Below, piece after piece: positions 18,127 through 40,328 of a DNA stretch of 64,000 nt (the first letter of the stretch is position 1; the number at the start of each line of letters is the position of its first letter). Origin of the DNA: Acidilutibacter cellobiosedens (GTDB lineage: Bacteria > Bacillota > Clostridia > Tissierellales > Acidilutibacteraceae). Where the stretch lies: assembly GCF_004103715.1 (NCBI RefSeq), contig NZ_CP035282.1:1044673-1108672 (forward strand). Direction: 5' to 3'. Under the pieces are notes generated by a model. That model was not told the DNA's origin. It saw only the letters and a program-made list of their open reading frames with translations, and searched no databases. Position numbers and translations under genes: made by a program.

Positions 18127-19815
18127 ATGAACAGAAGTGGCATGAAATGTGTTTTATATCCTCGTGTCAGCACAGAAATGCAGGTTGATGGATTTAGCTT
18201 AGATGGTCAGAGAAGTAGCTTAAAACGCTTTGCAGATAGAGAAGAAATGATAGTAGTAGACATCTATGAAGATGCAGGTAAATCCGGAAAATCCATTGAG
18301 GGCAGACCTGCCTTTAAAAAGATGTTATCAGATATAGAAAATGGCTTACAAATAGATTACATACTGGTGTATAAGCTATCCCGTTTCGGGAGAAATGCAG
18401 CAGATATTCTAAATTCTTTAGAGTTTATACAATCCTATGGGATAAATCTTATCTGTATTGAAGAAGGAATAGATTCATCACAGGCAAGTGGAAAACTCCT
18501 CATATCGGTGCTTTCAGCGGTTGCCGAGATTGAAAGAGAAAATATTATTGAGCAGACAATGAATGGTCGTAAGGAAAAAGCAAGACAAGGTGGCTGGAAT
18601 GGTGGTTTTGCTCCTTATGGTTATTATTTAAAAGATAAAAATTTATTCATTCAGGAAGAAGAAGCGGAGGTTATCCGCATAATATATGATAAGTTTGCTA
18701 ATACGGAAATGGGTTACGGCGGTGTTGCCCAATATCTTAACCTACAAGGTATTAAGAAAATTCAAAGGCAGAATGGGAAACTTAGCGAATGGAGTGGTCA
18801 TTTGGTTAGGCAGATTTTAGACAACCCTGTTTACTATGGAAAAATTGCTTTTGGCAGACGGGCAAGGGAAAAAGTGAAGGGTACAAAAAATCAATACCGG
18901 CAAGCGTGGCAAGAAGAGTATATTGTTGCGGATGGTAAGCATGAGGCTATCATCAGCGAGGAATTATGGAACAAGGTTCGTGAAAAAAGAATAGAAACTG
19001 GAATAAAGCAGCCATCAAAAGTGGGCAAGGATCGGTCACATTTACTCACAGGGCTTTTGAGATGCCCAGTTTGCGGTGGTCCGATGTATACCAATAAACA
19101 CGCATGGACAAATAAAGATGGTACATACAAAGAAGTATATTATTATGTATGTAGTCGTAATAGAATGGTCAGAGGAAAAAGCTGTACTTATAAAGCAATG
19201 CTTAAAAAAACAGAAATTGAGCCGCTTGTTATTGCCTCAATTAAAGAATTGGTTAGCAATAAAACCTTTGCTAAGGAAGTTAAATCAAGAATAGGCACTC
19301 AAATTGATACAACAACAATTGATAGGGAGATTAAGAATTACGAAAGCAAGCTCAGAGAGGTTGACTTGAACAAAGCACGTTTGGAGAATGAAATTGATAC
19401 CTTACCTGAAGATACCCGTTATAGGGAGAGAAAGCTGCATGATATGACTATTCGATTAGATGGGCTGTATGATATAATGGTGGAATTAGAAGAAAAAATT
19501 GAAGATGCAAAGCTAAAGCGACGTTCTGTGGAAATGAACGCTATCACATTAGACAATGTTTACAGATTGATGATTAACTTTGAAAAAATGTACGATAGAA
19601 TTAATGATGAAGAACGGAAAGCTCTTGTATCGTCCTTGATTAAAGAAATTCAGATATATCCTCGTGATGAAACAGAAGTACCATTAAAGTCGATTTTCTT
19701 TAACTTTCCTGTCTTTAAAGACGGAGAAGAAGTGCAGGAACTTTTGTGGGATAAAGATACGCACGTTGAGAGTATAATAATGATGACGCATTGTGGCGAT
19801 AAGGAGAAAAGGTAG
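18127..19815 (+). CDS. Large serine recombinase of an integrative element (TndX-like)
   Basis: 562 residues. The N-terminal resolvase domain contains YPRVSTEMQ (the nucleophile Ser near residue 16), LVYKLSRFGRNA and the AEIERENIIEQT helix E (about 140). A recombinase domain (GGFAPYGYYLKD, GVAQYLNLQGI) and a zinc ribbon (CPVCGGPM near 316 and CSRNRMVRGKSCTY near 344) follow, then a long coiled coil (about 395-490). This organisation is that of TndX/phiC31-type integrases and of Tn5397-like elements. The last gene of the module; the right boundary must lie shortly after it. Confidence 0.92.
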   Translation: MNRSGMKCVLYPRVSTEMQVDGFSLDGQRSSLKRFADREEMIVVDIYEDAGKSGKSIEGRPAFKKMLSDIENGLQIDYILVYKLSRFGRNAADILNSLEFIQSYGINLICIEEGIDSSQASGKLLISVLSAVAEIERENIIEQTMNGRKEKARQGGWNGGFAPYGYYLKDKNLFIQEEEAEVIRIIYDKFANTEMGYGGVAQYLNLQGIKKIQRQNGKLSEWSGHLVRQILDNPVYYGKIAFGRRAREKVKGTKNQYRQAWQEEYIVADGKHEAIISEELWNKVREKRIETGIKQPSKVGKDRSHLLTGLLRCPVCGGPMYTNKHAWTNKDGTYKEVYYYVCSRNRMVRGKSCTYKAMLKKTEIEPLVIASIKELVSNKTFAKEVKSRIGTQIDTTTIDREIKNYESKLREVDLNKARLENEIDTLPEDTRYRERKLHDMTIRLDGLYDIMVELEEKIEDAKLKRRSVEMNAITLDNVYRLMINFEKMYDRINDEERKALVSSLIKEIQIYPRDETEVPLKSIFFNFPVFKDGEEVQELLWDKDTHVESIIMMTHCGDKEKR

Positions 19816-20171
19816 GGTTCAACCACAACATATAGTGGTTTGAGGACAAAAATTGGGTCAAAAATCGGAGTAAAAACACCGTTTTTTGACCCTTAAAAAT
19901 AGGGTAAAATATAGATGACATAGGAAAAATGAAAATTTTAGTTGATAAATCGGTGGATGAATTATATTATATATTACAGAAAAGTAGAGTAGTGAAACAT
20001 GAATGATTTATAAGCTATTAGACAAATAGGAATTTGACTCTTCCTTTGATATGAAAAAACCGCAAAATTAAGCAATGTAAAGTCTAGTTGCGGTATTGTA
20101 AAGCTTATGTGGTAGTATTTTAGCATGATTTTAACTACAATAAAATTACCAAAACAAAGGAGGATTTTATT
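19816..20171. other. Spacer after the recombinase, likely element end
   Basis: No gene. It holds the inverted repeats at 19821-19840 (AACCAC/GTGGTT) and 19855-19892, and a stem ACCGCAA (20059-20065) / TTGCGGT (20088-20094) that is followed on the minus strand by T6. The attachment site was not resolved. Confidence 0.45.
19855..19892. repeat. 14-bp inverted repeat beyond the recombinase
   Basis: GGGTCAAAAATCGG (19855-19868) mirrors CCGTTTTTTGACCC (19879-19892) with one mismatch. No T tract follows, so it is more like a binding or junction structure near the right end of the module than a terminator. Confidence 0.6.
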
Positions 20172-22657: not shown

Positions 22658-24355
22658 CTACATTTTTAATTTTCTATAAAGAGTTCTTAGACTTAAACCA
22701 AGCTCCTTTGCAGCTTTTTCTTTCCCTTTGACATCCCATCCATTCTTATCTAAGGCATTTATTATTAATTGATACTCGGTTTCTGAAACCCTATCTTTTA
22801 TATTTGAGTTAGAATTAACATAGTGTGTAATTCTAGTAGGCAGACTACTAACCTGTATTATTTTTGTTTCCTCCATATTTAAGGCATATTCAATACAATT
22901 TTCCAGTTCTCTAATGTTTCCCGGCCAGCTATATGATTTTAATGTTTCTAAAGCCTCATCCGATAAAGAGCTAATTTTTTTATTAAGTCTCTTATTATAT
23001 ACATTTATAAAATGATTTGATAATAACTCTATATCACCTATTCTTTTGATTAGAGGAGGTAAGTGTATTTGAATCACGTTTAAGCGATAAAATAGGTCTT
23101 CACGAAATTTATTTTCTTCAATCATTTCTTCTAAATCTCTGTTAGTTGCAGCAATAACTCTGATGTCAATAGGTATAGGTGTTATACTTCCAAGTCTTTG
23201 TATTGTATGGTTTTGAAGGACTCTAAGTAGTTTTGCCTGCAGATATAGGGGCAATTCTCCGATTTCGTCAAGAAATATTGTTCCGCTATTGGCCAGTTCA
23301 AATATTCCCTGTTTACCGCCTTTTTTAGCTCCCGTAAAAGCTCCTTCCTCATATCCAAATAACTCTGATTCGAATAAAGAATCTGGGATATTTGCACAAT
23401 TTATTGGTATAAATGGATTATCTTTCCGATTGCTTGTATAATGGATGGCCTCGGCAATCATTTCTTTACCGGTGCCGGTTTTTCCGGTTATAAGGACCGA
23501 TGATGATGAGGTAGACAATTTTATAATCTTTCTTTTAATTTCATTAATAATATTATCATTTGATATTATTTTTTCAAGATAATTAAAATTTGTAGATACA
23601 GATAATACCTTATCTTTTTCGAATTTTAAAGAGTAGCCGATTACCTCATCATAAGATGTTAATGGTGATACGTATATTAATCCGTTAAATGTGTTGAGAC
23701 TAAAATATCTTTTTATAGGCTTTTTAACGGATAAAATCCAATCCGAAACATCTTTTGGTAATATTTGATATATAGATTGAGCAAATAGATCACAATATGG
23801 AAGCAGTTCATTAGTTCCTTTATTACAATAAATCAACATCCCATTTGCGTCTATTAGCAAAAAATATTCATATTCATTTGTAATTAATTCATCTATGGCA
23901 TTATGTAATATTTGAGAATCTTTTTTTGAAGATTCATTTGAAGCGAACATAGATATTAAATTAGAAATGTAGTCTATAATTTCCACATAATTACTGATGT
24001 TCTTTTCTATCGTGACATGTCTTTCTTGAGAAAAAGAAGTCATACTGACTACACCTATTGGAATGCTATTTATTTTTATACAAGATAATATTTCAATAGT
24101 AGAAGGACAATTATTCACAAATCTGCATCCAATACATGATTTCATATGGCCGGGCTTATTAACTACAATGTTGCCTTGAGTCAAAACCTCTTCAATAGAA
24201 GCCGAATGAACAGTTCGGCCTTTCCTTTTAAGATAGGTCCTTGTACTCGTAATTAAATGTGAATCGGCATCAAAAATTGCATATTCTAAATTTGTTAGAT
24301 TTGACATTGTTGAAACGATATTATCCAGGCTCGGCCTGATGTCTTTTAAAATCAT
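22658..24355 (-). CDS. Sigma-54-dependent enhancer-binding regulator with cysteine-rich sensor
   Basis: 565 residues from the ATG at 24355 (AGGAGGG upstream); a longer frame starts before that site. N-terminal sensor region: Cys cluster CIGCRFVNNC at about 73-82 with another Cys near 93, then a PAS-like stretch (about 155-245). AAA+ domain with Walker A TGKTGTGKE near 285, GAFTGA near 337 (the sigma-54 contact, intact) and DEIGELP near 360. C-terminal Fis-type HTH VKGKEKAAKELGLSLRTLYR near 545. Sigma-54 contact and HTH are both complete, so it should activate the divergent eight-gene set. The Cys cluster could bind a metal or Fe-S cluster or sense redox state. The inducer is unknown. Confidence 0.92.
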   Translation of the reverse strand: MILKDIRPSLDNIVSTMSNLTNLEYAIFDADSHLITSTRTYLKRKGRTVHSASIEEVLTQGNIVVNKPGHMKSCIGCRFVNNCPSTIEILSCIKINSIPIGVVSMTSFSQERHVTIEKNISNYVEIIDYISNLISMFASNESSKKDSQILHNAIDELITNEYEYFLLIDANGMLIYCNKGTNELLPYCDLFAQSIYQILPKDVSDWILSVKKPIKRYFSLNTFNGLIYVSPLTSYDEVIGYSLKFEKDKVLSVSTNFNYLEKIISNDNIINEIKRKIIKLSTSSSSVLITGKTGTGKEMIAEAIHYTSNRKDNPFIPINCANIPDSLFESELFGYEEGAFTGAKKGGKQGIFELANSGTIFLDEIGELPLYLQAKLLRVLQNHTIQRLGSITPIPIDIRVIAATNRDLEEMIEENKFREDLFYRLNVIQIHLPPLIKRIGDIELLSNHFINVYNKRLNKKISSLSDEALETLKSYSWPGNIRELENCIEYALNMEETKIIQVSSLPTRITHYVNSNSNIKDRVSETEYQLIINALDKNGWDVKGKEKAAKELGLSLRTLYRKLKM

Positions 24356-24367
24356 GATATCCCTCCT

Positions 24368-24409
24368 ATTTGACAAATATGACAATTAATTTGACTTAAA
24401 TGGCAATTA
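24368..24409. promoter_or_regulatory. Two abutting 21-bp direct repeats: probable enhancer sites
   Basis: ATTTGACAAATATGACAATT-type copy 1 (24368-24388) and copy 2 (24389-24409) have the same frame ATTTGAC-N4-ATGRCAATTA and directly abut. Each is an imperfect palindrome (ATTTGAC versus ATTGYCAT). They lie just upstream of the regulator's ribosome site and 110-150 bp before the -24/-12 element, the usual distance for sigma-54 enhancers. Confidence 0.75.
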
Positions 24410-24516
24410 TATATGATTATTTTATCACATTACCGGAAAAGAAAATTAAAAATTTTCAAAAAACATTGGAATATAGCATATAAAAATTTTTAATAAAAAA
24501 AGTATAAACTAAAATA

Positions 24517-24532
24517 TTGGTATAAAAAATGC
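24517..24532 (+). promoter_or_regulatory. Sigma-54 (-24/-12) promoter
   Basis: TTGGTATAAAAAATGC: the GG at 24519-24520 and GC at 24531-24532 have the required 12-bp register. It is weaker than consensus at the CAC core but the TTGG-N10-GC skeleton is intact. Positioned to start transcription around 24543-24546, ahead of the GcvPA-like gene. Confidence 0.75.
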
Positions 24533-24546
24533 GACGTAATATTATA

Positions 24547-24569
24547 GTCAAAGATAAATTATCTTTGAC
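24547..24569. repeat. 23-bp perfect palindrome at the predicted start site
   Basis: GTCAAAGATAA (24547-24557) and TTATCTTTGAC (24559-24569) are exact inverted copies around one A. In RNA it would form an 11-bp hairpin at the very 5' end of the operon transcript; in DNA it could be a repressor operator. Confidence 0.75.
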
Positions 24570-24781
24570 AGGTAAAATGACAGTTATATCTGAATATGTT
24601 TCAGGAATCGGACTGGAAGCCCGGGGAACTAAAAAGTGGTGATAAAGCTGATACACATTGTACTGTGAAGGGAGGAAGTGTAAAAATTGCTTATATAATG
24701 ATTTAGCATTATGAATAGCAGGCGCCGCACTTGTTGTTGAAAGTGAAGGAATTGCATAAATTTTAATAGGAGGTACCAAGT
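24570..24781 (+). other. Leader of the sigma-54 operon, with decayed coding sequence
   Basis: A 36-residue frame (24596-24706) has protein-like composition (WKPGELKSGDKADTHCTVKG) but no ribosome site, and another frame ends in AGAALVVESEGIA at about 24720-24760. I did not recognise a family; a vague resemblance to GrdB/PrdB-type selenoprotein segments (an in-frame TGA precedes AGAAL) is not strong enough to call. The region may be the scar of a lost first gene. Confidence 0.35.
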
Positions 24782-26185
24782 ATGACAAATCATGGATTTA
24801 GAAATCATCCGTATATTCCTAACTCAGATGAGGATGTACAAAAGAAGATGTTAAGGGAAATAGGTTTAAAAAATTTAGAGGATTTACATAGTGAGATTCC
24901 TGAAGAATTAAGGTTTAAAAGAAAATTAAACTTACCTGAACCATATACTTCAGAATATGAATTGAAAAGAGAAGTTGAGAAACTGTTACGAAAAAATATA
25001 TCTTCCAATGAATATATAAATTTTTTAGGGGCAGGCTGCTGGCAGCATTATGTTCCGGCTATTTGCGATGAGATAGCTAATAGAGCAGAATTCCTTTCGG
25101 GATATGCCGGAGAACCTTATAATGACCATGGAAGGTTTCAAGCCTTGTTTGAATATGAGTCATTGGTTGCCGAGCTTGTAGATATGGATGTGGTGAATGT
25201 TCCTACTTTTGACTGGGCGCAGGCTGCGGCAACTGCGTTGAGAATGTCATCAAGAATAACTTCCAGGGAAGATGCTTTAGTAGTCCGAACTATTAGCAGG
25301 GATAAGCTGGATATAATTAAGAATTATTGTGATCCCGGAGTAAATATTATTTTAGTTGACTATGATACAAAAACCGGAATGATTAATATGAATGATTTAA
25401 AAAATAAGATATCTGATGAAACTGCCGCAGTTTACTTTGAAAATCCTTCATATTTAGGGTTCATTGAAGAACAAGGAAATGAAATTTCCAAGGTTGCCCG
25501 CGATGCCGGAGCACTTTCAGTTGTAGGAGTTGATCCAAGCAGCTTAGGTGTAATGGAGACTCCGTCAGCATATGGAGCAGATATAATTTGTGGAGATTTA
25601 CAGCCTTTAGGAATGCATATGAATTATGGGGGAGGGCAATCTGGATTTATTGCTACAAGAGATGAAAAGAAATTTGTACTTGAGTTTCCTTCCAGATTAT
25701 TTGGCATCGCGCCAACTATAAAAGAAGGAGAATACGGATTTGGGGATATAGCATATGAAAGGACTTCCTTTGGAAATTTAAGAGAAAAAGGAAAGGAGTA
25801 TGTAGGTACTCAAACAGCATTATACGGTATTACTGCAGGGGTTTATCTTTCATTAATGGGTCCCCATGGAATGTTTGATTTAGGGAAAAATATTATGCAG
25901 AAATCTCAATATGCCATAGAAGAATTAACTAAGATAGAAGGTGTAAAAGGTTCTAAATTCAGTAATGTAAGCTTTAAGGAATTTGTAGTTGATTTCAATG
26001 ATACGAATAAGACCGTTAAAGAAATAAATGAAAAATTATTAGCAAAAGGCATATTCGGTGGAAAAGATCTTTCTGAAGAATTCCCTGAATTAGGACAAGC
26101 GGCGCTATATTGCGTAACAGAGGTTCATTTAAAAGAGGATATTGATACCTTAGTCAATGAAATAAAAAAAATAGTCAGAGGATAG
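24782..26185 (+). CDS. GcvPA-like PLP enzyme subunit, diverged
   Basis: 467 residues, AGGAGG upstream. Overall sequence follows glycine dehydrogenase (decarboxylating) subunit 1: NHPYIPNSDEDVQKKMLREI, FLGAGCWQHYVPAICDEI, and later ENPSYLGFIEEQ and NYGGGQSGFIATRDEKK. Key canonical motifs differ: AYDHYVP is CWQHYVP, YTPYQPEVSQG is replaced by AGEPYNDHGRF, and YDGATAAAE is FDWAQAAAT. The catalytic lysine is in subunit 2. This subunit should form the partner half of the dimer. No gcvH or gcvT is found in the window, so classical glycine cleavage is doubtful; a different amino-acid substrate is likely. Confidence 0.88.
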   Translation: MTNHGFRNHPYIPNSDEDVQKKMLREIGLKNLEDLHSEIPEELRFKRKLNLPEPYTSEYELKREVEKLLRKNISSNEYINFLGAGCWQHYVPAICDEIANRAEFLSGYAGEPYNDHGRFQALFEYESLVAELVDMDVVNVPTFDWAQAAATALRMSSRITSREDALVVRTISRDKLDIIKNYCDPGVNIILVDYDTKTGMINMNDLKNKISDETAAVYFENPSYLGFIEEQGNEISKVARDAGALSVVGVDPSSLGVMETPSAYGADIICGDLQPLGMHMNYGGGQSGFIATRDEKKFVLEFPSRLFGIAPTIKEGEYGFGDIAYERTSFGNLREKGKEYVGTQTALYGITAGVYLSLMGPHGMFDLGKNIMQKSQYAIEELTKIEGVKGSKFSNVSFKEFVVDFNDTNKTVKEINEKLLAKGIFGGKDLSEEFPELGQAALYCVTEVHLKEDIDTLVNEIKKIVRG

Positions 26186-26203
26186 ACAGCAGAAAGGGAT
26201 GAT

Positions 26204-27769
26204 ATGATGAAGCGAATTATTAGAAATTCTAAAATCAGAGATTTCCATCAGGCCAGGTGGAATGAACCAATTATAAATGAGCTAGGGCATAAAGGCGAAA
26301 GGGGGATAATAGTTCCTCAAACCGAGGAAGCCATTGAAAGACAGGTAGGAGATGGGATATCTAAACTTCCCCAATCTGTGAGAAGAAAGAAACTGCCTAA
26401 TTTGCCTGAGATAAATCAAAAGAGAGTTCTCATGCATTATTTGAGGCTTTCACAGGAAACTTTGGGAGGTGATATAAATATTGAAATCGGACAAGGCACA
26501 TGTACTGTTAAATATAATCCGACAATAAATAACAAAATTGCCGATTCCGAAAAGATGACTGAATTGCACCCCCTACAGGATGAGAGTACTGTCCAGGGGA
26601 TATTGGAAATCATGTATAAAACCGATTTAATGATGAGAGAGATTTCCGGTATGGATTATTTCAGTTTTCAGCCGGGAGGAGGTTCTCAAGCTACTATGAC
26701 TATGGCTTCAATAGTCAGGATGTATCATAGGTTACGCGGTGAAGAGGAGCAAAGGGATGAAATCATAACGACTATATATTCTCATCCGTCAGACGCGGCG
26801 GCTCCTGCGTTAAAAGGTTATAAGATTATTAAGATTATGACGGATGAGAAGGGTCATCCTGATTATGAGGCATTTAAGGCTGCGGTGAACAATAGAACGG
26901 CTGCATTTGTCGCAGCCAATCCGGAAGATACCGGAATATTTAACCCAAGGATAAAGGAATTTACTGATTTAGTTACTAAAGCCGGTGGTCTGAATTGCTA
27001 TGATCAAGCTAATGCAAATGGTTTGTTTGGAGTGGCGAGAGCTAAAGAAGCAGGTTTTCAAATGTGTTATTTTAACCTTCACAAATCTTTTGGAACTCCT
27101 CATGGCTGCGGAGGGCCCGGTTCAGGTGCTGTCGGAGTCATTAAGGAATTGAAAGATCTTTTGCCGAAACCGTTGGTTGATTTTGACGGGAAGAAATATT
27201 ATTTAAACTATAATATTAAAAACAGCATTGGAAAAGTTAAGTCTTTTATTGGAACACCCCAGGTAGTGTTAAAAGCATATTCTTGGATTATGAGCATGGG
27301 CGCTGAAGGATTGTATGAGGTTGCAAAGATTGCAGTTTTGAATAATGTTTATTTAATTAAAAAGTTATTGAAGTATAAAGGCCTTACAGTTCCATATGAT
27401 GTAAATATTCAAAGAATCGAGCAAGCCAGATATTCAATGGAACAGATAACTAAGGATACCGGAATAGGTATTGAAGATATTACAAGAAGAGTAATGGACT
27501 TCGGAACGCATATTTGGTCAAGCCATCATCCCTTTTATATTCCCGAACCTATAACACTGGAACCAACAGAATCTCCGTCTAAGGAAGATTTGGACGAGTA
27601 TATAGAGACAATACATCACATATTGGATGAAGCCTATAATAATCCCGAGATAATTCATAGTGCTCCAAACAATAGTACAATTCATCAGGTTGATGAATCG
27701 AGCCTCGATGATCCTGATGAGTGGTGTCCGACGTGGAGAGTATATCTAAGAAAAACTAAGACTGATTAG
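26204..27769 (+). CDS. GcvPB-like PLP decarboxylase subunit, diverged
   Basis: 521 residues (ATG ATG at 26204/26207; AAAGGG upstream), longer than canonical GcvPB by about 35. PLP lysine in NLHKSFGTPHGCGGPGSG near residue 293. Differences from GcvPB: PLGSCTMKYNP is IGQGTCTVKYNP (about 100), QPAAGAHGE is QPGGGSQAT (about 160), and DSAHGTNPAS is YSHPSDAAAPA. The His that stacks on PLP is kept, but the surrounding carrier-facing loops changed. With the upstream subunit this looks like a free-substrate decarboxylase or aldolase-like enzyme rather than the P-protein of a lipoyl-carrier system. Confidence 0.88.
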   Translation: MMKRIIRNSKIRDFHQARWNEPIINELGHKGERGIIVPQTEEAIERQVGDGISKLPQSVRRKKLPNLPEINQKRVLMHYLRLSQETLGGDINIEIGQGTCTVKYNPTINNKIADSEKMTELHPLQDESTVQGILEIMYKTDLMMREISGMDYFSFQPGGGSQATMTMASIVRMYHRLRGEEEQRDEIITTIYSHPSDAAAPALKGYKIIKIMTDEKGHPDYEAFKAAVNNRTAAFVAANPEDTGIFNPRIKEFTDLVTKAGGLNCYDQANANGLFGVARAKEAGFQMCYFNLHKSFGTPHGCGGPGSGAVGVIKELKDLLPKPLVDFDGKKYYLNYNIKNSIGKVKSFIGTPQVVLKAYSWIMSMGAEGLYEVAKIAVLNNVYLIKKLLKYKGLTVPYDVNIQRIEQARYSMEQITKDTGIGIEDITRRVMDFGTHIWSSHHPFYIPEPITLEPTESPSKEDLDEYIETIHHILDEAYNNPEIIHSAPNNSTIHQVDESSLDDPDEWCPTWRVYLRKTKTD

Positions 27770-27782
27770 CCAGGTATGTAAT

Positions 27783-28919
27783 ATGAAAACTATTGGCTTA
27801 ATTATAAATCCGATATCCGGTATGGGTGGAAAGGTAGGGCTGAAAGGAACAGACGGAGCGATTACTTTAAATAAGGCTGTTAAACTTGGAGCTGTTAGGG
27901 AGGCTCCATGCAAAGCCTTGAAAGCATTAGAAAAGTTAATTCCGTTGAAAGATGATTTACTGATACTGACTTCATCAAATGATATGGGAGAAATTCAATG
28001 TAAATCTTTGGGATTTAACTATAAGATTGTGTACAAGACCGGAAATTTTACAAATTACCGTGATACTATAAATGCCGCAAGGATTTTTGAGAAATTAGGC
28101 GTTGAATTGATACTCTTCGCAGGTGGTGACGGTACTGCAAGAGATATTTATAAGGCCGTGGAAATTAGAATTCCTGCTTTAGGAATTCCCACAGGGGTGA
28201 AAATCCATTCTCCTGTTTATGCCAACACTCCGGAATTAGCGGGTGATTTGGCTCTTATGTATTTAAAAAACGGTAATTTATGCTTGAAAGATGAAGAGGT
28301 CATTGATATTGACGAAAAAGAATTCAGAAATAATAGGGTGGTAACGCGTCTGTTCGGATATTTGAAGGTTCCGTATAAAAAGAGACTGCTGCAGAATAAA
28401 AAATCTCCGACTCCTTTAGGAGATGAAGAAAGCCAGAAAGCGATTGCCCTTGATATTATAGATAATATGCTGGAAGGTGTTTATTATGTTATAGGACCGG
28501 GGACTACAACGAGAGCAATAATGGAGGAATTGAACTTACCCAACAGCCTTCTCGGAGTAGATATAATTAGAGATAGAAAAATAGTGAAACTGGATTGCAA
28601 TGAAAGCGATATTTTAGACATTGATTTAGAACGTGTTTGTAAACTGGTTATTGCGCCAACAGGCGGTCAGGGATATCTGCTGGGGAGGGGCAATCAGCAG
28701 ATCAGCTCTCGAGTAATATCTAGAATTAAAAAAGAAAATATAATAATTATATCATCAAATAGCAAGATTATCGAGTTAAGAGGAAATCCGCTTTTTGTAT
28801 ATACAGGTGACCCTGCAGTCGATAAATACTTAGAGGGCTATTACAGGATTAAAGTTGGTTATGGGAATGATCTTATATATAAAGTTTCAGGAGGTGAGGA
28901 TGGTAAGACTTTGCTCTAA
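27783..28919 (+). CDS. ATP-NAD kinase/AcoX-family protein
   Basis: 378 residues. GLIINPISGMGGKVGLKGTD at the N-terminus and FAGGDGTARD near 120 are the NAD-kinase/diacylglycerol-kinase-like nucleotide motifs; PALGIPTGVKIHSPVYA near 140 and IAPTGGQGYLLGRGNQQIS near 300 match the AcoX/COG3199 subfamily. AcoX partners acetoin and other catabolic operons, with unknown chemistry. It follows the GcvPB-like gene by 13 bp. Possible roles: supplying NADP for the two dehydrogenases downstream, or phosphorylating a pathway intermediate. Confidence 0.85.
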   Translation: MKTIGLIINPISGMGGKVGLKGTDGAITLNKAVKLGAVREAPCKALKALEKLIPLKDDLLILTSSNDMGEIQCKSLGFNYKIVYKTGNFTNYRDTINAARIFEKLGVELILFAGGDGTARDIYKAVEIRIPALGIPTGVKIHSPVYANTPELAGDLALMYLKNGNLCLKDEEVIDIDEKEFRNNRVVTRLFGYLKVPYKKRLLQNKKSPTPLGDEESQKAIALDIIDNMLEGVYYVIGPGTTTRAIMEELNLPNSLLGVDIIRDRKIVKLDCNESDILDIDLERVCKLVIAPTGGQGYLLGRGNQQISSRVISRIKKENIIIISSNSKIIELRGNPLFVYTGDPAVDKYLEGYYRIKVGYGNDLIYKVSGGEDGKTLL

Positions 28920-28972
28920 AATTTCAAAATATTTTGCATAATATTATTTATTTAATGAACAGGAGGATGAGT

Positions 28973-29716
28973 ATGGCTAAATACGAAGATTTAAAAGGCA
29001 AAAGAGTAATTGTAACAGGAGGGGCAAGCGGTATAGGTTTTGCTACCGCTAAACGGTTTGCGCAAGAGGGAGCAAAAGTTGTAATTTTTGATGTAAACAA
29101 AATTGCTTTAAAAGAAGTTCTTTTAAGTAACCCGGAACTAATCGGAGGGGAAGAGGTAGATGTTTCAAATGAAGAAAGTGTAAGAAATGGTTTTTTAGGA
29201 TCTGATGAACTTATAGGAGGTATTGATGTTCTTGTTTCCAATGCGGGAATTAGCATAAGAAATTTATTTAAAGATACAACTTATGAACAATGGAAAAGAG
29301 TGTTGGATATAAACTTGGGCGGGATGTACTTATGTGCAAAGGAAGCATTGAAGAGAATGGCGGATCAAAAATCAGGAGTAATACTTTTCACAGCTTCAAC
29401 GAATGGAATGGAAGGACATCCTTTCTATGCAGATTATAATGCTTCCAAAGCCGGTGTTATATTGCTTGGAAGAACTTTGGCCTTGGAATACGCTCCTTAT
29501 ATTCGAGTAAATTCTGTTTGTCCGGGATATGTATTGACTCCAATGCAAAGAGCAGAATATACAGAAGAAATGTTACAAAAAGTAAATGAGGGCATACCTA
29601 TGAAAAGGCACGCAAAGCCTGAGGAGGTAGCTGGATTATATGTATTTTTGGCATCTGATGAAGCTCAATATATTACTGGACAGCATATTCCATTAGATGG
29701 CGGAGAAACAGCTTAA
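28973..29716 (+). CDS. Short-chain dehydrogenase/reductase
   Basis: 247 residues from the ATG at 28973 (AGGAGG upstream); an earlier ATG at 28934 lacks a site. TGGASGIG (15-22) binds the cofactor; catalytic Ser near 142 (TASTNG) and YNASK near 155 are intact; DVNKIA near 43 suggests NAD preference by an acidic residue after beta-2. Classical SDR; probably oxidises or reduces the hydroxyl or keto intermediate in this pathway. Confidence 0.9.
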   Translation: MAKYEDLKGKRVIVTGGASGIGFATAKRFAQEGAKVVIFDVNKIALKEVLLSNPELIGGEEVDVSNEESVRNGFLGSDELIGGIDVLVSNAGISIRNLFKDTTYEQWKRVLDINLGGMYLCAKEALKRMADQKSGVILFTASTNGMEGHPFYADYNASKAGVILLGRTLALEYAPYIRVNSVCPGYVLTPMQRAEYTEEMLQKVNEGIPMKRHAKPEEVAGLYVFLASDEAQYITGQHIPLDGGETA

Positions 29717-29738: not shown

Positions 29739-30704
29739 ATGAAATCATTAATTGCAATTTTCAGTTATATGAAACAAGATGAAATAGATATAGAGAAGGA
29801 AATTTTAAAAGGAACTGATACGGTTGTTGAGTTTTTCAATTCAGAAGAAGAAATAGAAAAAAGATTTAAGGAAATTAGTGTCCTAATCTTAGCTAATCCT
29901 GAAATTAAGCGAGATACAATAAACAGATTGAGCAATTGTAAAGCAATTATCAGACGTGGCGTTGGGGCTGATAACATAGATATAAAATCGGCAACAGAAA
30001 ACAAAATTATTGTATGTAATGTACCTGATTATTGTTCTTCTGAGGTCTCGGATTTAGCTCTTGGATTAATTCTCAGTTTGGTAAAAAGAATTCCGAATTA
30101 TATCTCAGATGTGAAAAATGGTATTTGGCATATAGATAGTCCGAAAGTATTGCCTCTGTCAAGGGGATTGCAAAATATGACTCTGGGCTTAGCAGGATTT
30201 GGCGGTATTTCAAGAGCTCTTGCTAAGAAAACCAAGAGTTTATTCAGAAATATTATTTCTTCTGACCCATATGTTTCATCTGATATAGCAAAGGAATATG
30301 GTGTAGAACTTGTTTCCATGGATAAATTATTTAAATTATCCGATGTTATCTCTTTGCATATGCCAAATACTAAAGAAACTTATCACTTTGTTAATGATGA
30401 ATTATTGTCTTCTATGAAGGAATCTGCATATTTAGTAAATACTGCCAGAGGACAACTGATTGATGAAATAGCATTGTATAAGGCTTTAAAGAATAGAAAG
30501 ATTGCAGGGGCTGCATTAGATGTAACAGAGATAGAACCCCCAGAAGTAGATAATCAGCTTTTAGAGTTAGATAACCTATTTATTACTCCACATATTGGAT
30601 TCTATTCTTTAGATTCCTTTAAAGAATTAAGAATAAAGGCAGCAGAAGAAGCGAGGAGAATCATTATGTCAGAAAAACCACTTCATCAAATAAACCATTT
30701 TTAA
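29739..30704 (+). CDS. NAD-dependent D-2-hydroxyacid dehydrogenase
   Basis: 321 residues. Rossmann GFGGISRALAKK near 150, and the catalytic Arg (NTARGQLIDE near 236), Glu (EIEPPEVDN near 265) and His (ITPHIGFYS near 287) are all present. Similar to phosphoglycerate/hydroxypyruvate reductase-like enzymes. Pairs naturally with the aminotransferase 17 bp downstream: 2-oxo acid from transamination, then reduction to a D-2-hydroxy acid, or the reverse. Confidence 0.9.
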   Translation: MKSLIAIFSYMKQDEIDIEKEILKGTDTVVEFFNSEEEIEKRFKEISVLILANPEIKRDTINRLSNCKAIIRRGVGADNIDIKSATENKIIVCNVPDYCSSEVSDLALGLILSLVKRIPNYISDVKNGIWHIDSPKVLPLSRGLQNMTLGLAGFGGISRALAKKTKSLFRNIISSDPYVSSDIAKEYGVELVSMDKLFKLSDVISLHMPNTKETYHFVNDELLSSMKESAYLVNTARGQLIDEIALYKALKNRKIAGAALDVTEIEPPEVDNQLLELDNLFITPHIGFYSLDSFKELRIKAAEEARRIIMSEKPLHQINHF

Positions 30705-30723
30705 ATATGAAGGAGGTCATGTG

Positions 30724-31899
30724 ATGAAATTACCAACCAAAAGAATGAGTAATATTCCATTTACTGGAGGAATACGAGAAATTTTAAGCAAAGCCGATAA
30801 AATGGAGAAAGAAGGTAAAAAGATAATCCACTTGGAAATTGGAAGGCCTGATTTTGGTTCTCCAGAAGTTGCAATACAAGCTTTAATTAAATCAATTAAG
30901 GCTGGCCAAATGCATTATAGCGATATTTCAGGAGTTGAAGAGCTTAGAGCTGCAATCGCAGACAATATTAAAAGAACAATCGGAATTGAAGTAAATCCTT
31001 ATAATGAAATAGTTGTAGGAGTTGGAGCAGTAGAAGGATTAATAAATTCTATGATATCATTACTTGATGTTGGAGATGAAATCATATTTTTGACGCCGTG
31101 CTTTCCAGCATACTTTGATGAAGCTTTTTTAGCAGGGGTTATACCTGTAGAGGTGCCTCTTAAGTTTTCAGATAACTATTCACTAGATATTAATGAATTG
31201 AAAAGAAAAGTAACAAATAAAACAAAAATGATATTAATTAATAGTCCAAATAATCCTACCGGTGCTATATTGTCAAGAGAAGACTTGGAGAAAATAGCTC
31301 AAATTGCTATTGAGAATGACTTATTCGTTGTATCTGATGATGCTTATAGTGAATTCTATTTTGATCAGAAGTGGACAAGCATAGCTACTATACCCGGAAT
31401 GAGAGAAAGAACTATAATAGTAAATACTACTTCAAAAGCATTTTCAATGACCGGTTGGAGAGTTGGTTATACGATTGCTCGGCCTGAGATAACAAGGTAT
31501 TTATGCAAGACTCACCAGAACATGACTACGCAACCAAGCACCTTTGCCCAATATGGCGCTGTTGCGGCATATGAGAGTGGTAAATCTTGGACTGAAATGA
31601 TGGTTAAAGAATTTAAGAGAAGACGGGATTTAGTTATAAGATATTTAGATCAGATACATGGAATAGATTACATCAAGCCTGAAGGAGCATTCTACTTTTT
31701 TTTATGTATTGATAAATTAAATATGAGTTCAGATGAATTTTGTGATTATATTATAAGAGAAGCAGGGGTTGCCTTAGTTCCCGGAGATGCATTCAAAGGC
31801 GAGAAAGGCCGCCATTTTGTCAGACTAGCGTATGCAAATTCTTACGAAAACATTGAAGAAGGTATGAAAAGAATAAAGAAAGCTATAGAAAAATTATAA
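30724..31899 (+). CDS. Class I/II PLP aminotransferase, AspC type
   Basis: 391 residues from the ATG at 30724, seven bases after AGGAGG. Signature NSPNNPTGAILSRED near 173, SDDAYSEFYFD near 205, PLP Lys238 in TSKAFSMTGWRVGY, and FVRLAYANSYENIEEGM near the end. Fold-type I, aspartate-aminotransferase-like. Likely provides or removes the amino group from the pathway's amino acid. Confidence 0.9.
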   Translation: MKLPTKRMSNIPFTGGIREILSKADKMEKEGKKIIHLEIGRPDFGSPEVAIQALIKSIKAGQMHYSDISGVEELRAAIADNIKRTIGIEVNPYNEIVVGVGAVEGLINSMISLLDVGDEIIFLTPCFPAYFDEAFLAGVIPVEVPLKFSDNYSLDINELKRKVTNKTKMILINSPNNPTGAILSREDLEKIAQIAIENDLFVVSDDAYSEFYFDQKWTSIATIPGMRERTIIVNTTSKAFSMTGWRVGYTIARPEITRYLCKTHQNMTTQPSTFAQYGAVAAYESGKSWTEMMVKEFKRRRDLVIRYLDQIHGIDYIKPEGAFYFFLCIDKLNMSSDEFCDYIIREAGVALVPGDAFKGEKGRHFVRLAYANSYENIEEGMKRIKKAIEKL

Positions 31900-32050: not shown

Positions 32051-33460
32051 ATGGAACATACTAAAATAAAGAAAAAGAGATTTGAAATGCCACATGTATA
32101 TATAATATTAATGTCAATGATGTTATTGGTAATAATTATGTCATTTATCGTGCCAAGTGGAGAATATGTAAGAACTGTTGATCCTGTGACAGAAAATACA
32201 ATTGTGGACCCTGATAGTTATCATACAGTTGAAAAACCGACACCAACTTCCCCATTAGGTTTCGGGGTAGCAATTTATAACGGTGCTATGAATGCAGCGT
32301 CAATATTTTTTCAAATAATAATGGTTTGTGGTACGTTGGAATTTCTCCAGACAACAGGTGCATTTGAGGCTGGTGTAGGAAAATTAGTTAATACGTTCTC
32401 TAATCATATTAGTTTACTTCCGGCTGTAATTTTATTAATTTTTACAATTTTAGGGAATATAGGAATGCAGGATGGATGTCTTCCGTTATATCCAATAGCC
32501 GCAGGTATAATGATTAGAGCTGGATATGATAAAGTATCTGCAGTGGGAGCAGGTATCTTGGGAGAGGCTATAGGTTTTAGCGGTGGTGCATTAAACATGT
32601 TTACTGTGGGAATATCACAGGAAATATTAGGAATACCGATATTTTCAGGTTTTTCGTTTAGATTGATGGCTTCGACATTATTTTATATAGTAACCGTTTC
32701 ATACTTATTATGGTATTGCAAAAGAATTAGAAAAGACCCCACAAAAAGTGTAATTGCTGATGAATATATTAATCAATTGTCAACACAAAAAGAATCCGAA
32801 TCATTACCCTTAACTTGGCAGAGGTCTGTTGCATTAATAGGATTGCTTATTGCAGTGATATTACAGGGGTATGGTCCTCTTAAATTAGGTTGGGGGATTG
32901 CTGAAATAACATCTTTATATGTGATTCTAACGTTTGTTATTGTAATTATATTCAAAATCAATCCTAATAAAGCATGCGAAATTTACATGGAAGGTGCAAA
33001 AAATATTCTTCCTGCAGCCTTTGTTTTGGCATTTTCAAATGCAATTTTAGTATTAATGAATAATGCTAAAATCATAGATACCGCTATCCATACGTTAGTT
33101 CAGGCACTTGAAGGAAAAGAAGAAATTGGGATTTTAATAATCCTATTCTTCGCAATTATGGCTTTTGAATTTTTAGTTTCATCCGGCACTGGAAAGGCCA
33201 TGCTGATTATGCCAATTTTAAAACCGATTGGTCAGATAATAAATATGAGCAGGCAGCTTATAGTCGTTGTATATCAGTACGCAGAGGGCGCTACACAATA
33301 TATTTGGCCCACATCCGGTACTCTTTTAGCTGCACTTGGGCTGTGTAAAGTTAGATATCAGGATTGGGTTAAATTTGCATGGAAACCGATTTTGTTGATA
33401 ACTCTTACAAACATTGTGATGGTTATATTGGCATATAAATTACAAATAGGACCTTTTTAA
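32051..33460 (+). CDS. YfcC-family membrane transporter
   Basis: 469 residues, about 12 hydrophobic segments. The N-terminus (KKKRFEMPHVYIILMSMMLL), IVPSGEYVRTVDPVT, and AEGATQYIWPTSGTLLAALG near the C-terminus are family signatures of YfcC/C4-dicarboxylate anaerobic carrier-like proteins that also include arginine/ornithine antiporters. It is the import or exchange step of the operon, placed 150 bp after the aminotransferase, with GAAAGAAGGGAGATT upstream; the gap could hold an additional promoter. Confidence 0.88.
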   Translation: MEHTKIKKKRFEMPHVYIILMSMMLLVIIMSFIVPSGEYVRTVDPVTENTIVDPDSYHTVEKPTPTSPLGFGVAIYNGAMNAASIFFQIIMVCGTLEFLQTTGAFEAGVGKLVNTFSNHISLLPAVILLIFTILGNIGMQDGCLPLYPIAAGIMIRAGYDKVSAVGAGILGEAIGFSGGALNMFTVGISQEILGIPIFSGFSFRLMASTLFYIVTVSYLLWYCKRIRKDPTKSVIADEYINQLSTQKESESLPLTWQRSVALIGLLIAVILQGYGPLKLGWGIAEITSLYVILTFVIVIIFKINPNKACEIYMEGAKNILPAAFVLAFSNAILVLMNNAKIIDTAIHTLVQALEGKEEIGILIILFFAIMAFEFLVSSGTGKAMLIMPILKPIGQIINMSRQLIVVVYQYAEGATQYIWPTSGTLLAALGLCKVRYQDWVKFAWKPILLITLTNIVMVILAYKLQIGPF

Positions 33461-33558: not shown

Positions 33559-33586
33559 GTAAATATAAAATAAAAGGTGAGTGTAT

Positions 33587-35215
33587 ATGAATTTAATTAT
33601 ATTAAACGGAAATATTTATACAATGAATAAAAGAAATCCAAAAGCAGAAGCATTATTTATTGAAGATGGAATATTTAAGAATATAGGATCTAATAAAGAG
33701 ATTTCAGAATTAATAAATAAAAGCAGCCTTGTAATTGATGCAGATGGGAAAACCATATTACCGGGTTTTATAGATAGCCACATGCATTTAGCCATGTTTG
33801 GTTCAAATCTGTATGAATGTAATTTAGTAGGGACAAAATCAATAGAGGAATTAATTAATAAAGTTAAGGATTATATTTCTTCAAAGAAAATTCCGAAAGG
33901 AGACTGGGTAATCGGAAAGGGATGGAATGAAGACTATTTTAATGTTAAAAGACTTCCTAACAGATATGACTTAGATAAAATTTCAAAAGAACATAATATT
34001 TGTTTAACCAGAGGATGTTATCATATGTGTGTCGTAAACAGTAATGTTTTGGATGAAATTGGGATCAACAAGGAAAATCATGAGATAAATAATGGAATTT
34101 TTGATATAGACCAGAATAGTGTTCCAACAGGTATTTGCAGAGAGAGTGCAATGAAGTTGGTATACTCTAAGCTGCCTAAGGTATCTAAAGATAGGTTTAA
34201 AGAATATATAAAGCTTGCATCAAACTATGTATTATCAAGAGGTATTACTTCTTTATGCACTGATGATTTTATGCTACCGGGAATAGAGTGGCAGAATGTT
34301 ATTGATTCGTATACTGAAATGAACAGAGACGGTGAACTAAAAATCAGAGTCTATGAACAATGCCTGCTTCCAACCTTAGAATATATTAAGGAATTTGCTT
34401 CTAAAGGATATAAGACCGGGATTGGCGATGATCATTTTAAAATCGGACAGCTAAAAATATTAACTGATGGGAATTTAGGAACCAGAACGGCTTATTTATC
34501 GGAACCGTACAGCGATGACAATTCTACTTTCGGGATACCGCAATACACACAAAATGAACTGGATAATTTGATTTTAACTGCAACTGAATCCGGATTGCAA
34601 ATTGCTTCCCATGCTATAGGAGATAAATCCATAAATATGGTTATTGATGCTTTGGAAAAATTACCGGAAGAATATAAGAAAAGAGATTTAAGAAGCAATA
34701 TTGTGCATTGTCAGGTTACCAATGACAGGCTGCTGAAAAAATTTAAGAAATTGAACATTGTTGCTAATGTGCAACCTATATTCTTAAACTATGATATTCA
34801 TATGGCTGAATCTAGGCTTGGGCCAAGCAGAATTACTAATTCATACAATTGGAAGACATTATTGAACGAAGGCATAAAAGTGGCATTGGGTTCGGATAGT
34901 CCCGTTGAGCTGCCTGATACAATGCTTGGTATATATTCGGCAGTAACCAGAAAGGATTTAAATGGCTTCCCAAATGGAGGATGGTTTCCGGAAGAAAAAT
35001 TGACAGTTGATGAAGCACTTCATGGATTTACTATTGATGCTGCATATTCTTCTTTCAGCGAAGATATTAAAGGTTCAATAGAAATTGGGAAATTAGCCGA
35101 TTTTGTTGTATTATCAGAAAATATATATGAAATTGAACCTGAAAATATTAAGAATGTTAAGGTCTTGAAAACTTTTATTGATGGTAAGTTAGTATTCGAT
35201 ATCGAAAAGATTTAG
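33587..35215 (+). CDS. Amidohydrolase, YtcJ/exoenzyme type
   Basis: 542 residues from the ATG at 33587 (GTG at 33581 is nearer the AAAGGTGAG site). Opening MNLIILNGNIYTMNKRNPKA is typical. HxH metal pair in SHMHLAMFG near 66, KIGQLKILTDGNLGTRTAYL near 287, ASHAIGD near 345, and LGSDSPVELP near 435 (the conserved Asp) are all intact. Members hydrolyse amide or formamide bonds of N-substituted amines. It may liberate the amino acid that the rest of the operon degrades. Confidence 0.88.
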   Translation: MNLIILNGNIYTMNKRNPKAEALFIEDGIFKNIGSNKEISELINKSSLVIDADGKTILPGFIDSHMHLAMFGSNLYECNLVGTKSIEELINKVKDYISSKKIPKGDWVIGKGWNEDYFNVKRLPNRYDLDKISKEHNICLTRGCYHMCVVNSNVLDEIGINKENHEINNGIFDIDQNSVPTGICRESAMKLVYSKLPKVSKDRFKEYIKLASNYVLSRGITSLCTDDFMLPGIEWQNVIDSYTEMNRDGELKIRVYEQCLLPTLEYIKEFASKGYKTGIGDDHFKIGQLKILTDGNLGTRTAYLSEPYSDDNSTFGIPQYTQNELDNLILTATESGLQIASHAIGDKSINMVIDALEKLPEEYKKRDLRSNIVHCQVTNDRLLKKFKKLNIVANVQPIFLNYDIHMAESRLGPSRITNSYNWKTLLNEGIKVALGSDSPVELPDTMLGIYSAVTRKDLNGFPNGGWFPEEKLTVDEALHGFTIDAAYSSFSEDIKGSIEIGKLADFVVLSENIYEIEPENIKNVKVLKTFIDGKLVFDIEKI

Positions 35216-39389: not shown

Positions 39390-39482
39390 GATAATTTAGA
39401 TATTAATGACTATATCCTTGGATTATCAACAGATGAATTTATTAATGGACTGCTGGATATAAATTTAAATACGGAGGAATAA
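39390..39482 (+). pseudogene. C-terminal remnant immediately before lipA
   Basis: Frame encodes DNLDINDYILGLSTDEFING then LLDINLNTEE and stops 4 bp before the lipA ATG; there is no start. Its look and position suggest the tail of a lipoate-protein ligase-type gene, which often neighbours lipA, but this is a guess from a short segment. Confidence 0.4.
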
Positions 39483-39485
39483 CAA

Positions 39486-40328
39486 ATGCATTTAGAAAAA
39501 CCGGAATGGATTAAAGTAAAAATACAAGGTGGAAATGTATCAGGTAAGGTAAACTCTTTGATTTCAGAACTTTCTTTAAATACCGTATGCAATGAAGCCA
39601 ATTGTCCTAATAGGATGGAGTGCTATGAAAGAGGAACTGCCACATTTATGATATTAGGTAGAAATTGTACCAGAAACTGTACCTTTTGCAATGTAACTAA
39701 GAAAAAGCCCGAAAAAATAAACCCCATGGAACCGGAAAACGTAGCTAAGGCTGTAGCTAAGCTTGGTTTAAAACATGCCGTTATTACATCTGTTACTAGG
39801 GATGATTTGGAAGATCAAGGAGCTAATCAGTTTGCAAGAGTTGTAGAGAAAATAAGAAAGACTGCCCCAAAGGTAACAATTGAACTGCTTATACCTGATA
39901 TGCAAGGAAATAAGGAATTAATAGATATTATCATAAATTCAGAACCAAACATACTGAATCATAATGTAGAAACAGTACCGGAATTATATTATAAGATTAG
40001 ACCTATGGCGGTATTCGATAGATCTATAGAATTACTTGGTTATGTAAAGAAGACAAAACCAAATATGAGGACTAAATCGGGTATGATGTTAGGCTTGGGT
40101 GAAACTAAAGAACAGATAATAAATGTATTTAGAAGATTAAGAGAAGTTGATTGTGACATGCTGACATTGGGGCAATATTTGCAGCCCAGCAAATCCCATA
40201 TTCCGGTAGTGGAATATGTTACTCCTGAAACATTTTACGAATATAAAGAAATCGCGTTATCCATGGGTTTTAAGAGAGTGGCATCGGCACCTCTCGTTAG
40301 AAGTTCTTACTATGCAGAGAATTTTTAA
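39486..40328 (+). CDS. lipA: Lipoyl synthase
   Basis: 280 residues; GGAGG upstream. Auxiliary cluster Cys35, Cys40, Cys46 (CNEANCPNRMEC), radical-SAM cluster Cys61, Cys65, Cys68 (CTRNCTFC), and the C-terminal RSSY at 272-275 are all present, so this is a complete enzyme that inserts two sulfurs into octanoyl domains. Its acceptor proteins (GcvH, E2 domains) and the octanoyl/lipoate ligase are not in the window. Confidence 0.95.
   Translation: MHLEKPEWIKVKIQGGNVSGKVNSLISELSLNTVCNEANCPNRMECYERGTATFMILGRNCTRNCTFCNVTKKKPEKINPMEPENVAKAVAKLGLKHAVITSVTRDDLEDQGANQFARVVEKIRKTAPKVTIELLIPDMQGNKELIDIIINSEPNILNHNVETVPELYYKIRPMAVFDRSIELLGYVKKTKPNMRTKSGMMLGLGETKEQIINVFRRLREVDCDMLTLGQYLQPSKSHIPVVEYVTPETFYEYKEIALSMGFKRVASAPLVRSSYYAENF

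Follow-up and report, generated by a model that had tools for sequence, protein, structure and literature searches.

A 64,000-nucleotide stretch of the genome of Acidilutibacter cellobiosedens (contig NZ_CP035282.1, positions 1,044,673 to 1,108,672 of the forward strand), hereafter the window, carries two adjacent genes for proteins resembling GcvPA and GcvPB, the two subunits of glycine decarboxylase. We refer to these proteins as PA' and PB'. Together with their relatives they form a monophyletic family (PA'PB') that is distinct from canonical GcvPA/GcvPB. PA'PB' is very probably not an H-protein-dependent glycine decarboxylase and probably breaks a different carbon bond; we regard it as an enzyme of a known kind with possibly a new reaction.

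Both proteins pass the NCBIfam cut-offs, PA' with 481.9 bits on GcvPA (cut-off 364) and PB' with 525.1 bits on GcvPB (cut-off 441), so that automatic annotation will name them glycine dehydrogenase. By sequence their nearest solved structures are glycine decarboxylases. On PF02347, PA' scores 202 bits, versus 428-535 bits for canonical GcvPA in 39 genomes. The same 3.74-Mb genome contains an ordinary glycine cleavage locus (L062), with a canonical GcvPA at C1:507883 (480 bits) and with GcvH and GcvT close to it, and it also has a lipoate ligase and a match to lipoyl synthase (lipA).

The original prediction held that the pyridoxal phosphate (PLP)-lysine motif is kept and that loops conserved in glycine decarboxylase are replaced. 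Alignments of 52 family PA rows with 11 canonical rows, and of 54 family PB rows with 13, agreed with it on both counts; the canonical set is small and consists mostly of clostridial sequences and Thermus. The PLP lysine, Lys294 of PB', is invariant in family and canonical groups alike, as are His194, Asn239, Asp267 and Lys103, and most of the listed motifs are changed in a fixed or nearly fixed manner. In PA' a canonical Pro is replaced by Gly110 (50/52 rows), the Tyr of PYQPE is deleted (52/52), Ser is replaced by Asp115 (51/52), and two Gln residues by His116 (44/52) and Glu220 (52/52). The changes of YDGATAAAE to FDWAQAAAT and of AYDHYVP to CWQHYVP are present as well but less fixed, with T at the E-to-T position in 29 and Q in 38 of the 52 rows, respectively. 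In PB' the replacements of Ser by Thr99, Gly by Pro195, Asn by Glu241, Thr by Asp242 and Tyr by His441 occur in all 54 rows. A larger PB alignment (136 family rows, 130 of them distinct, and 15 canonical rows) gave Thr99, Asp242, Arg409 and His441 in 136/136, Pro195 in 135/136 and Glu241 in 129/136; the canonical counterpart of Arg409 varies with the alignment, being V in the smaller and E in the larger one.

Among 120 relatives, 22 genomes of which carry 28 PB' copies (one more fragment was excluded), family copies are 52-100% identical to the PB' of the window and canonical GcvPB at most 41%, with no listed protein in between. Because of this gap the loop changes cannot be ascribed to chance. 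In a maximum-likelihood tree built from 52 family and 15 canonical rows (67 in all), the phylogeny that had been suggested as a check, the two groups separated at 100/100, and the window clade (15 rows) was sister to a Bacillales clade (11 rows) with a support of 100/99.

An AlphaFold model of the fused PA'-PB' (pLDDT 69.9, pTM 0.73) matches GcvP structures with Z-scores of 30.1-35.4 over 429-841 residues, against 27.6 for the next family; among fold matches, group II PLP decarboxylases come closest behind GcvP. PA'PB' shares with the two-subunit glycine decarboxylase (Thermus 1wyt/1wyu; integrative model 9a73) the fold, the subunit split, the PLP lysine and the cofactor-site residues His, Asp and Asn, and differs from it by the low identity of PB' and the fixed loop changes. 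The pLDDT is below 50 in most of PA' 84-122 and 303-344 and throughout PB' 81-102 and 441-447, with mean values of 62-66 in the regions of PB' 190-200 and 239-244. Confidence in the replaced loops (below 50 or about 60-66) is too low for reading loop-to-PLP distances off the model. A loss of the H-protein interface was considered by aligning the human site Arg373/Lys376 by eye with a PA' segment, and was not used, the source (PMC7259800) being a docking model.

PB' was found in 27 of 398 Bacillota genomes drawn evenly. A GTDB scan yielded at least 587 loci encoding a relative, not individually checked, of which the best 80 were fetched (38 from Bacillales, 42 from other taxa). These 80 span Tissierella, Lutispora, Neobacillus, Paenibacillus, Brevibacillus, Heimdall-, Loki- and Bathyarchaeota, Desulfobacterales and others, and eight plasmid records add Rhodococcus, Sphingomonas, Gemmobacter, Paracoccus, Antarctobacter, Roseicitreum and a haloarchaeon. 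Family members are labelled glycine dehydrogenase in plasmid records. The family thus occurs in Bacillota, Actinomycetota, Pseudomonadota, Desulfobacterales and archaea. No description of it was found among titles and abstract openings of open-licence PubMed Central (PMC) papers, which were covered in part.

Relation to the glycine cleavage system

GcvH is present in 39 of 48 PB'-bearing genomes, and H-protein was not found in the other nine. In the same nine genomes neither T-protein, which was detected in two positive-control genomes, nor canonical GcvP was found, their GDC-P matches being at paralogue level only. Completeness reaches 90% or more in five of the nine (100, 99, 94, 94 and 92%; G143, one of those at 94%, has 7% contamination). 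H-protein can therefore not be required in these genomes; for the window this argument holds by family only, since its own genome has H-protein, T-protein and canonical GcvP.

A lipoate-ligase-family gene was seen in three of the nine genomes (G090, G093 and G436) and lipoyl synthase above the cut-off in one (G360). G070, G143, G185, G401 and G437 gave neither a lipoate-ligase-family gene nor lipA above the cut-off, in a search whose ligase model found only 9 of 14 controls and in which other lipoate genes and lipoyl-domain proteins were not sought. The absence of any lipoyl carrier is thus likely for part of the nine genomes only.

No Rfam match was obtained between positions 20000 and 38000 of the window, so that the operon there is without a riboswitch, and no glycine riboswitch was found at six other PB' loci scanned. 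A tandem glycine riboswitch was detected at L062, the positive control. In these features, the missing riboswitch and the occurrence in genomes without H-protein, T-protein and canonical GcvP, PA'PB' is unlike canonical glycine decarboxylase. Both features, together with the gene company described below, favour the proposal of the original prediction that the enzyme has a new substrate or a carrier-free reaction, without proving either. A match to the tetrahydrofolate riboswitch lies at L044:1429-1525, about 6 kb from the PA' of that locus.

Genes next to PA' and PB'

The features of the operon in the window are listed in Table 1. Neighbour counts within four genes of PB' are based on the 76 of the best 80 GTDB loci that have a callable PB'. 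PA' was found at this distance in 75 of them, a short-chain dehydrogenase (SDR) in 67, the AcoX-like protein in 37 and a sigma-54 regulator cluster in 29. In most loci the neighbours are unlike those of glycine cleavage.

Table 1. Features of the PA'PB' operon and its divergent regulator in the window
Feature	Position	Strand	Evidence
Sigma-54-dependent regulator, divergent, PrdR-like but under the PrdR cut-off	22658..24385	-	Profile match
PA', GcvPA-like subunit, 467 aa	24782..26185	+	NCBIfam GcvPA, PF02347
PB', GcvPB-like PLP-binding subunit, 521 aa, PLP lysine K294	26204..27769	+	NCBIfam GcvPB, own clade 100/100, family-specific invariant residues
AcoX-like protein, NAD-kinase fold family	27783..28919	+	PF01513 + PF20143
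Short-chain dehydrogenase, orthogroup SDR-2	28934..29716	+	Profile match and orthogroup comparison
D-2-hydroxyacid dehydrogenase family	29739..30704	+	Profile match
Class I aminotransferase	30721..31899	+	Profile match; similar gene in L039
YfcC/DcuC-type transporter	32051..33460	+	PF03606 264 bits; NCBIfam YfcC 224 bits, cut-off 500 not reached
Amidohydrolase (Amidohydro_3)	33581..35215	+	PF07969 351 bits; similar gene in L039

Over 131 PB' loci the dehydrogenases fall into two orthogroups, SDR-1 (80/131), mostly directly upstream of PA', and SDR-2 (20/131, the window included), with neither in 46/131. SDR-1 was not found in the genome of the window (best identity 40%), and we assume that SDR-2 replaces it there. 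In L057, L058, L060 and L061 a cluster of threonine-dehydrogenase-like medium-chain dehydrogenases (MDR), of which one member was tested, stands in the place of the SDR.

The AcoX-like protein is present in 39/42 non-Bacillales versus 0/38 Bacillales loci, as counted in the fetched stretches of the best 80. In the even draw it was found in 25/398 Bacillota genomes, some matches being partial, and 23 of these 25 also have PB'. By sequence it has no close solved relative; in the plasmid records its counterparts beside PA'PB' go under the names 'ATP-NAD kinase family' or 'NAD(+)/NADH kinase'. Like the AcoX of acetoin operons it is a kinase-family protein without an established role; unlike it, it is partnered with PA'PB' and not with the acetoin dehydrogenase complex. 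The idea of an anaerobe-specific AcoX module was dropped because the gene turned up on plasmids of Rhodococcus, Sphingomonas, Gemmobacter, Antarctobacter, Paracoccus and Roseicitreum. An AcoX-like gene alone, with a HisC/CobD-like PLP enzyme directly after it, occurs at L148:8668-10724 and L149:9177-11242 (L149 tested, under the cut-offs), which suggests a kinase/PLP-enzyme pair outside the PB' context. At L152:176-3463, deoC and the gene for pyrimidine-nucleoside phosphorylase flank an AcoX-like gene; besides acetoin operons, this is a second setting in which these proteins accompany acetaldehyde production.

Two sets of genes that might feed the pathway were recognised in the 38 Bacillales loci, the glycosidase families being judged from one tested member per cluster. 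A LacZ-type beta-galactosidase is present in 19 loci and a GH63-type protein in 13 (either in 25, both in 7), and a sugar ATP-binding cassette (ABC) permease in 26. Six other Bacillales loci, none with GH2 or GH63, combine an amino-acid ABC set and an M20 hydrolase, presumably RocB-like. The Lys/Arg/Orn model was the best match, under its cut-off, for one solute-binding protein of this set, and a large amino-acid permease occurs in 2 of the six (PRK10836 we take to be the lysine permease LysP). GH2/GH63-type genes were found in 0/42 non-Bacillales loci of the best 80. A GH2-cluster gene also occurs in L096 and in L035, the nearest relative of the window (PB' 86% identical); in L035 this beta-galactosidase-cluster gene lies directly behind PA'-PB'-AcoX', followed by apparent solute-binding and permease genes recognised by eye. 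L188, L196 and similar Neobacillus loci encode a LacZ-type enzyme, the tested member of which has PRK10340, presumably EbgA, as best match, and a GH63-type protein with distant likeness to E. coli YgjK.

An ornithine-racemase-like gene (under the cut-off) is found near PB' in five loci, two of which probably belong to one genome, and an amino-acid racemase (cysteate-racemase model, above the cut-off) in L046. Genes that could handle an acid or an amine were seen elsewhere: an acyl-CoA (coenzyme A) synthetase that follows PB' in two Rhodococcus and lies in its vicinity in Gemmobacter, an AMP-binding gene near PB' in L183, a CoA-transferase cluster in L058, L059 and L061, together with methylmalonyl-CoA mutase in L058 (tested) and L061 (by cluster), and a primary-amine oxidase above the cut-off in the Gemmobacter locus.

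Some loci are closer to glycine metabolism. In L101, L106, L108 and L116, PA'PB' adjoins canonical gcvPA/gcvPB, two radical-SAM-like genes, a lipoate-ligase-like gene and an Lpd-like gene (by eye), with PdxS-like and GcvH-like genes in some of the four. In G467 (L151) the AcoX-like gene has canonical gcvPA/gcvPB and lipoate-type genes as neighbours, and PB' is found on the same contig at a distance of about 85-90 kb. At L160:6449-8624, PA'-PB'-AcoX' is succeeded by a Kbl/BioF-family gene and by an extended SDR that looks by eye like a threonine dehydrogenase.

Proposed reaction and alternatives

GcvP binds H2N-CH2-COO- on its PLP and expels CO2. We tentatively propose that PA'PB', a two-subunit PLP enzyme, derives from glycine decarboxylase, works without H- and T-protein and would hydrolyse aminomethyl ketones; taken as a whole, this proposal has a somewhat less than even chance of being right. 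The dehydrogenase of the operon (SDR-1, SDR-2 or the threonine-dehydrogenase-like MDR) would first oxidise a 1,2-amino alcohol, R-CH(OH)-CH2-NH2, to R-CO-CH2-NH2. The PLP of PA'PB' would then take the aminomethyl group as GcvP takes glycine, with an acyl group instead of CO2 as the leaving group. Water, placed by family-specific residues such as Asp242, Glu241 or His441, would attack the ketone, the C-C bond would break and R-COOH would leave; the PLP carbanion, having no lipoyl acceptor, would be protonated to methylamine. The acid- and amine-handling neighbours match the products expected from such a hydrolysis.

For the window and the Bacillales clade the likeliest substrate would be 5-hydroxylysine, converted in two steps to glutamate and methylamine. 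The feeding of one core by either glycosides or free, perhaps cationic, amino acids points to this compound. The hydroxylysine of collagen bears Glc-alpha-1,2-Gal (PMC8626586). In Bacillales the GH63-type alpha-glycosidase and the LacZ-type beta-galactosidase might strip this Glc-Gal beforehand, and in L035 the beta-galactosidase would take off only the galactose part. Other clades would act on other amino alcohols. The substrate, the retro-Claisen chemistry and the products are our inference. No gene cluster for bacterial hydroxylysine breakdown was found among titles and abstract openings of open-licence PMC papers, covered in part, and passages of PMC7227101, which speak only of methylamine-loaded H-protein, neither support nor refute the release of free methylamine from GcvP.

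The proposed pathway resembles that of Tdh and Kbl, in which a dehydrogenase is followed by a PLP enzyme cleaving the resulting amino ketone. PA'PB' differs from Kbl in belonging to another PLP subfamily and in giving no sign of CoA use, and L160 has a separate Kbl-family gene. Hydrolytic PLP-dependent cleavage of a C-C bond next to a ketone is known from kynureninase, which would share this step with PA'PB' and differs in subfamily, substrate and bond position.

Several observations weigh against the hydrolysis of aminomethyl ketones, or against hydroxylysine as the substrate. The operon of the window lacks a glycosidase, any recognised methylamine-handling gene and SDR-1, having only SDR-2, and a lipA match lies inside the window some 4 kb past the amidohydrolase. 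The GH63-type protein was matched to a domain family and in the PDB only partially, the matches of the basic-amino-acid transporter and the ornithine racemase are under the NCBIfam cut-offs, and 3/38 Bacillales loci have neither feeding set. Neither SDR was found in the 46 PB' loci mentioned above, some of them masked by open reading frame (ORF) calling or contig ends and many from other clades. Loci with acyl-CoA synthetase make little sense with glutamate as the acid, and other clades must therefore use other substrates. The AcoX-like partner is left unexplained. The gcvP and lipoate-type neighbours in L101, L106, L108 and L116, and the place of the AcoX-like gene of G467 with gcv and lipoate-type genes and away from PB', would be in keeping with a connection to glycine or to lipoyl chemistry. 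GcvH is present in most PB' genomes (39/48), and the four of nine H-less genomes that keep a lipoate-ligase-family gene or lipA may have another lipoyl protein.

The Kbl-family gene behind the L160 operon fits a different scheme, which we consider unlikely, in which a beta-hydroxy-alpha-amino acid is oxidised and PA'PB', as a CoA-free counterpart of Kbl, splits the 2-amino-3-oxo acid by hydrolysis into glycine and a carboxylic acid, the glycine feeding the ordinary cleavage system. The four loci in which a Tdh-like MDR cluster accompanies PB' agree with it, as do the four others in which canonical gcv genes adjoin PB', and an acyl-CoA synthetase or CoA-transferase could use the acid. However, nine PB' genomes show no glycine cleavage system, the primary-amine oxidase of Gemmobacter is left unexplained, and the glycosidases and ornithine-racemase-like neighbours suit hydroxylysine better. 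The amine oxidase would instead be accounted for if PA'PB' removed the alpha-carboxyl group of a hydroxylated or cationic amino acid without a carrier, the quinonoid being protonated to an amine for a dehydrogenase or amine oxidase. Decarboxylation is the ancestral chemistry and group II PLP decarboxylases come next to GcvP in fold; this explanation, also improbable in our view, leaves the acyl-CoA synthetase and CoA-transferase neighbours without a role, and profile searches recognised no aldehyde- or amine-handling gene in the operon of the window.

In animals, hydroxylysine is broken down by a kinase and a phospho-lyase. Were the AcoX-like kinase to phosphorylate the hydroxyl of the amino alcohol, PA'PB' could similarly be a PLP phospho-lyase, and the NAD-kinase fold domains of the AcoX-like protein, its presence in 39/42 non-Bacillales loci and the lone AcoX-like genes that in L148 and L149 adjoin a HisC/CobD-like PLP enzyme would find a place. 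This is quite unlikely, as the dehydrogenase would be superfluous and as none of the 38 Bacillales loci has the AcoX-like gene though they keep PA' and PB', with an SDR in 35/38. That PA'PB' is simply a second, diverged glycine decarboxylase using the H-protein of the cell is highly improbable: the passed GcvPA/GcvPB cut-offs, the kept PLP residues and the GcvH of 39/48 genomes would suit it, and the fixed active-site changes and the lack of a glycine riboswitch would not. We rejected it as the principal explanation because PB' genomes without detectable H-protein, T-protein and canonical GcvP exist.

If the hydrolysis of aminomethyl ketones by PA'PB' is true, a large, deep-branching family is misnamed as glycine dehydrogenase, and metabolic models that infer glycine cleavage from it are distorted. 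PLP enzymology would gain a new reaction, bacterial hydroxylysine breakdown would gain named genes, and there would be a handle on the AcoX-like proteins. The wide form of this claim, that a new PLP activity, the carrier-free hydrolysis of aminomethyl ketones, arose from glycine decarboxylase through the exchange of CO2 for an acyl leaving group, that bacteria and archaea use it to turn collagen (glycosyl-)hydroxylysine into glutamate and methylamine in two steps, and that many 'GcvPA/GcvPB' entries are this enzyme, we hold to be doubtful. If the hydroxylysine idea is true, E. coli ebg/ygjK might have a related natural substrate.

Other features of the window and of related loci

A scan for the sigma-54 consensus gave no site in 24386-24781, upstream of PA', and overall counts at chance level; scans for sigma-70 promoters and terminators were likewise at chance level. 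The lipA match (373 bits, above the cut-off) covers window positions 39468-40328, with two TAA inside the match region and an ORF at 39486-40328. On three Rhodobacterales plasmids (L240, L241 and L242) a distant kinase-PA'-PB' trio lies near an IclR regulator, a sugar ABC transporter, a dihydrodipicolinate synthase (DHDPS)-family gene and an FAD oxidoreductase, which is a different catabolic context. A large serine recombinase with resolvase, recombinase and zinc-ribbon domains is encoded at 18127-19815 of the window, about 5 kb ahead of the operon.

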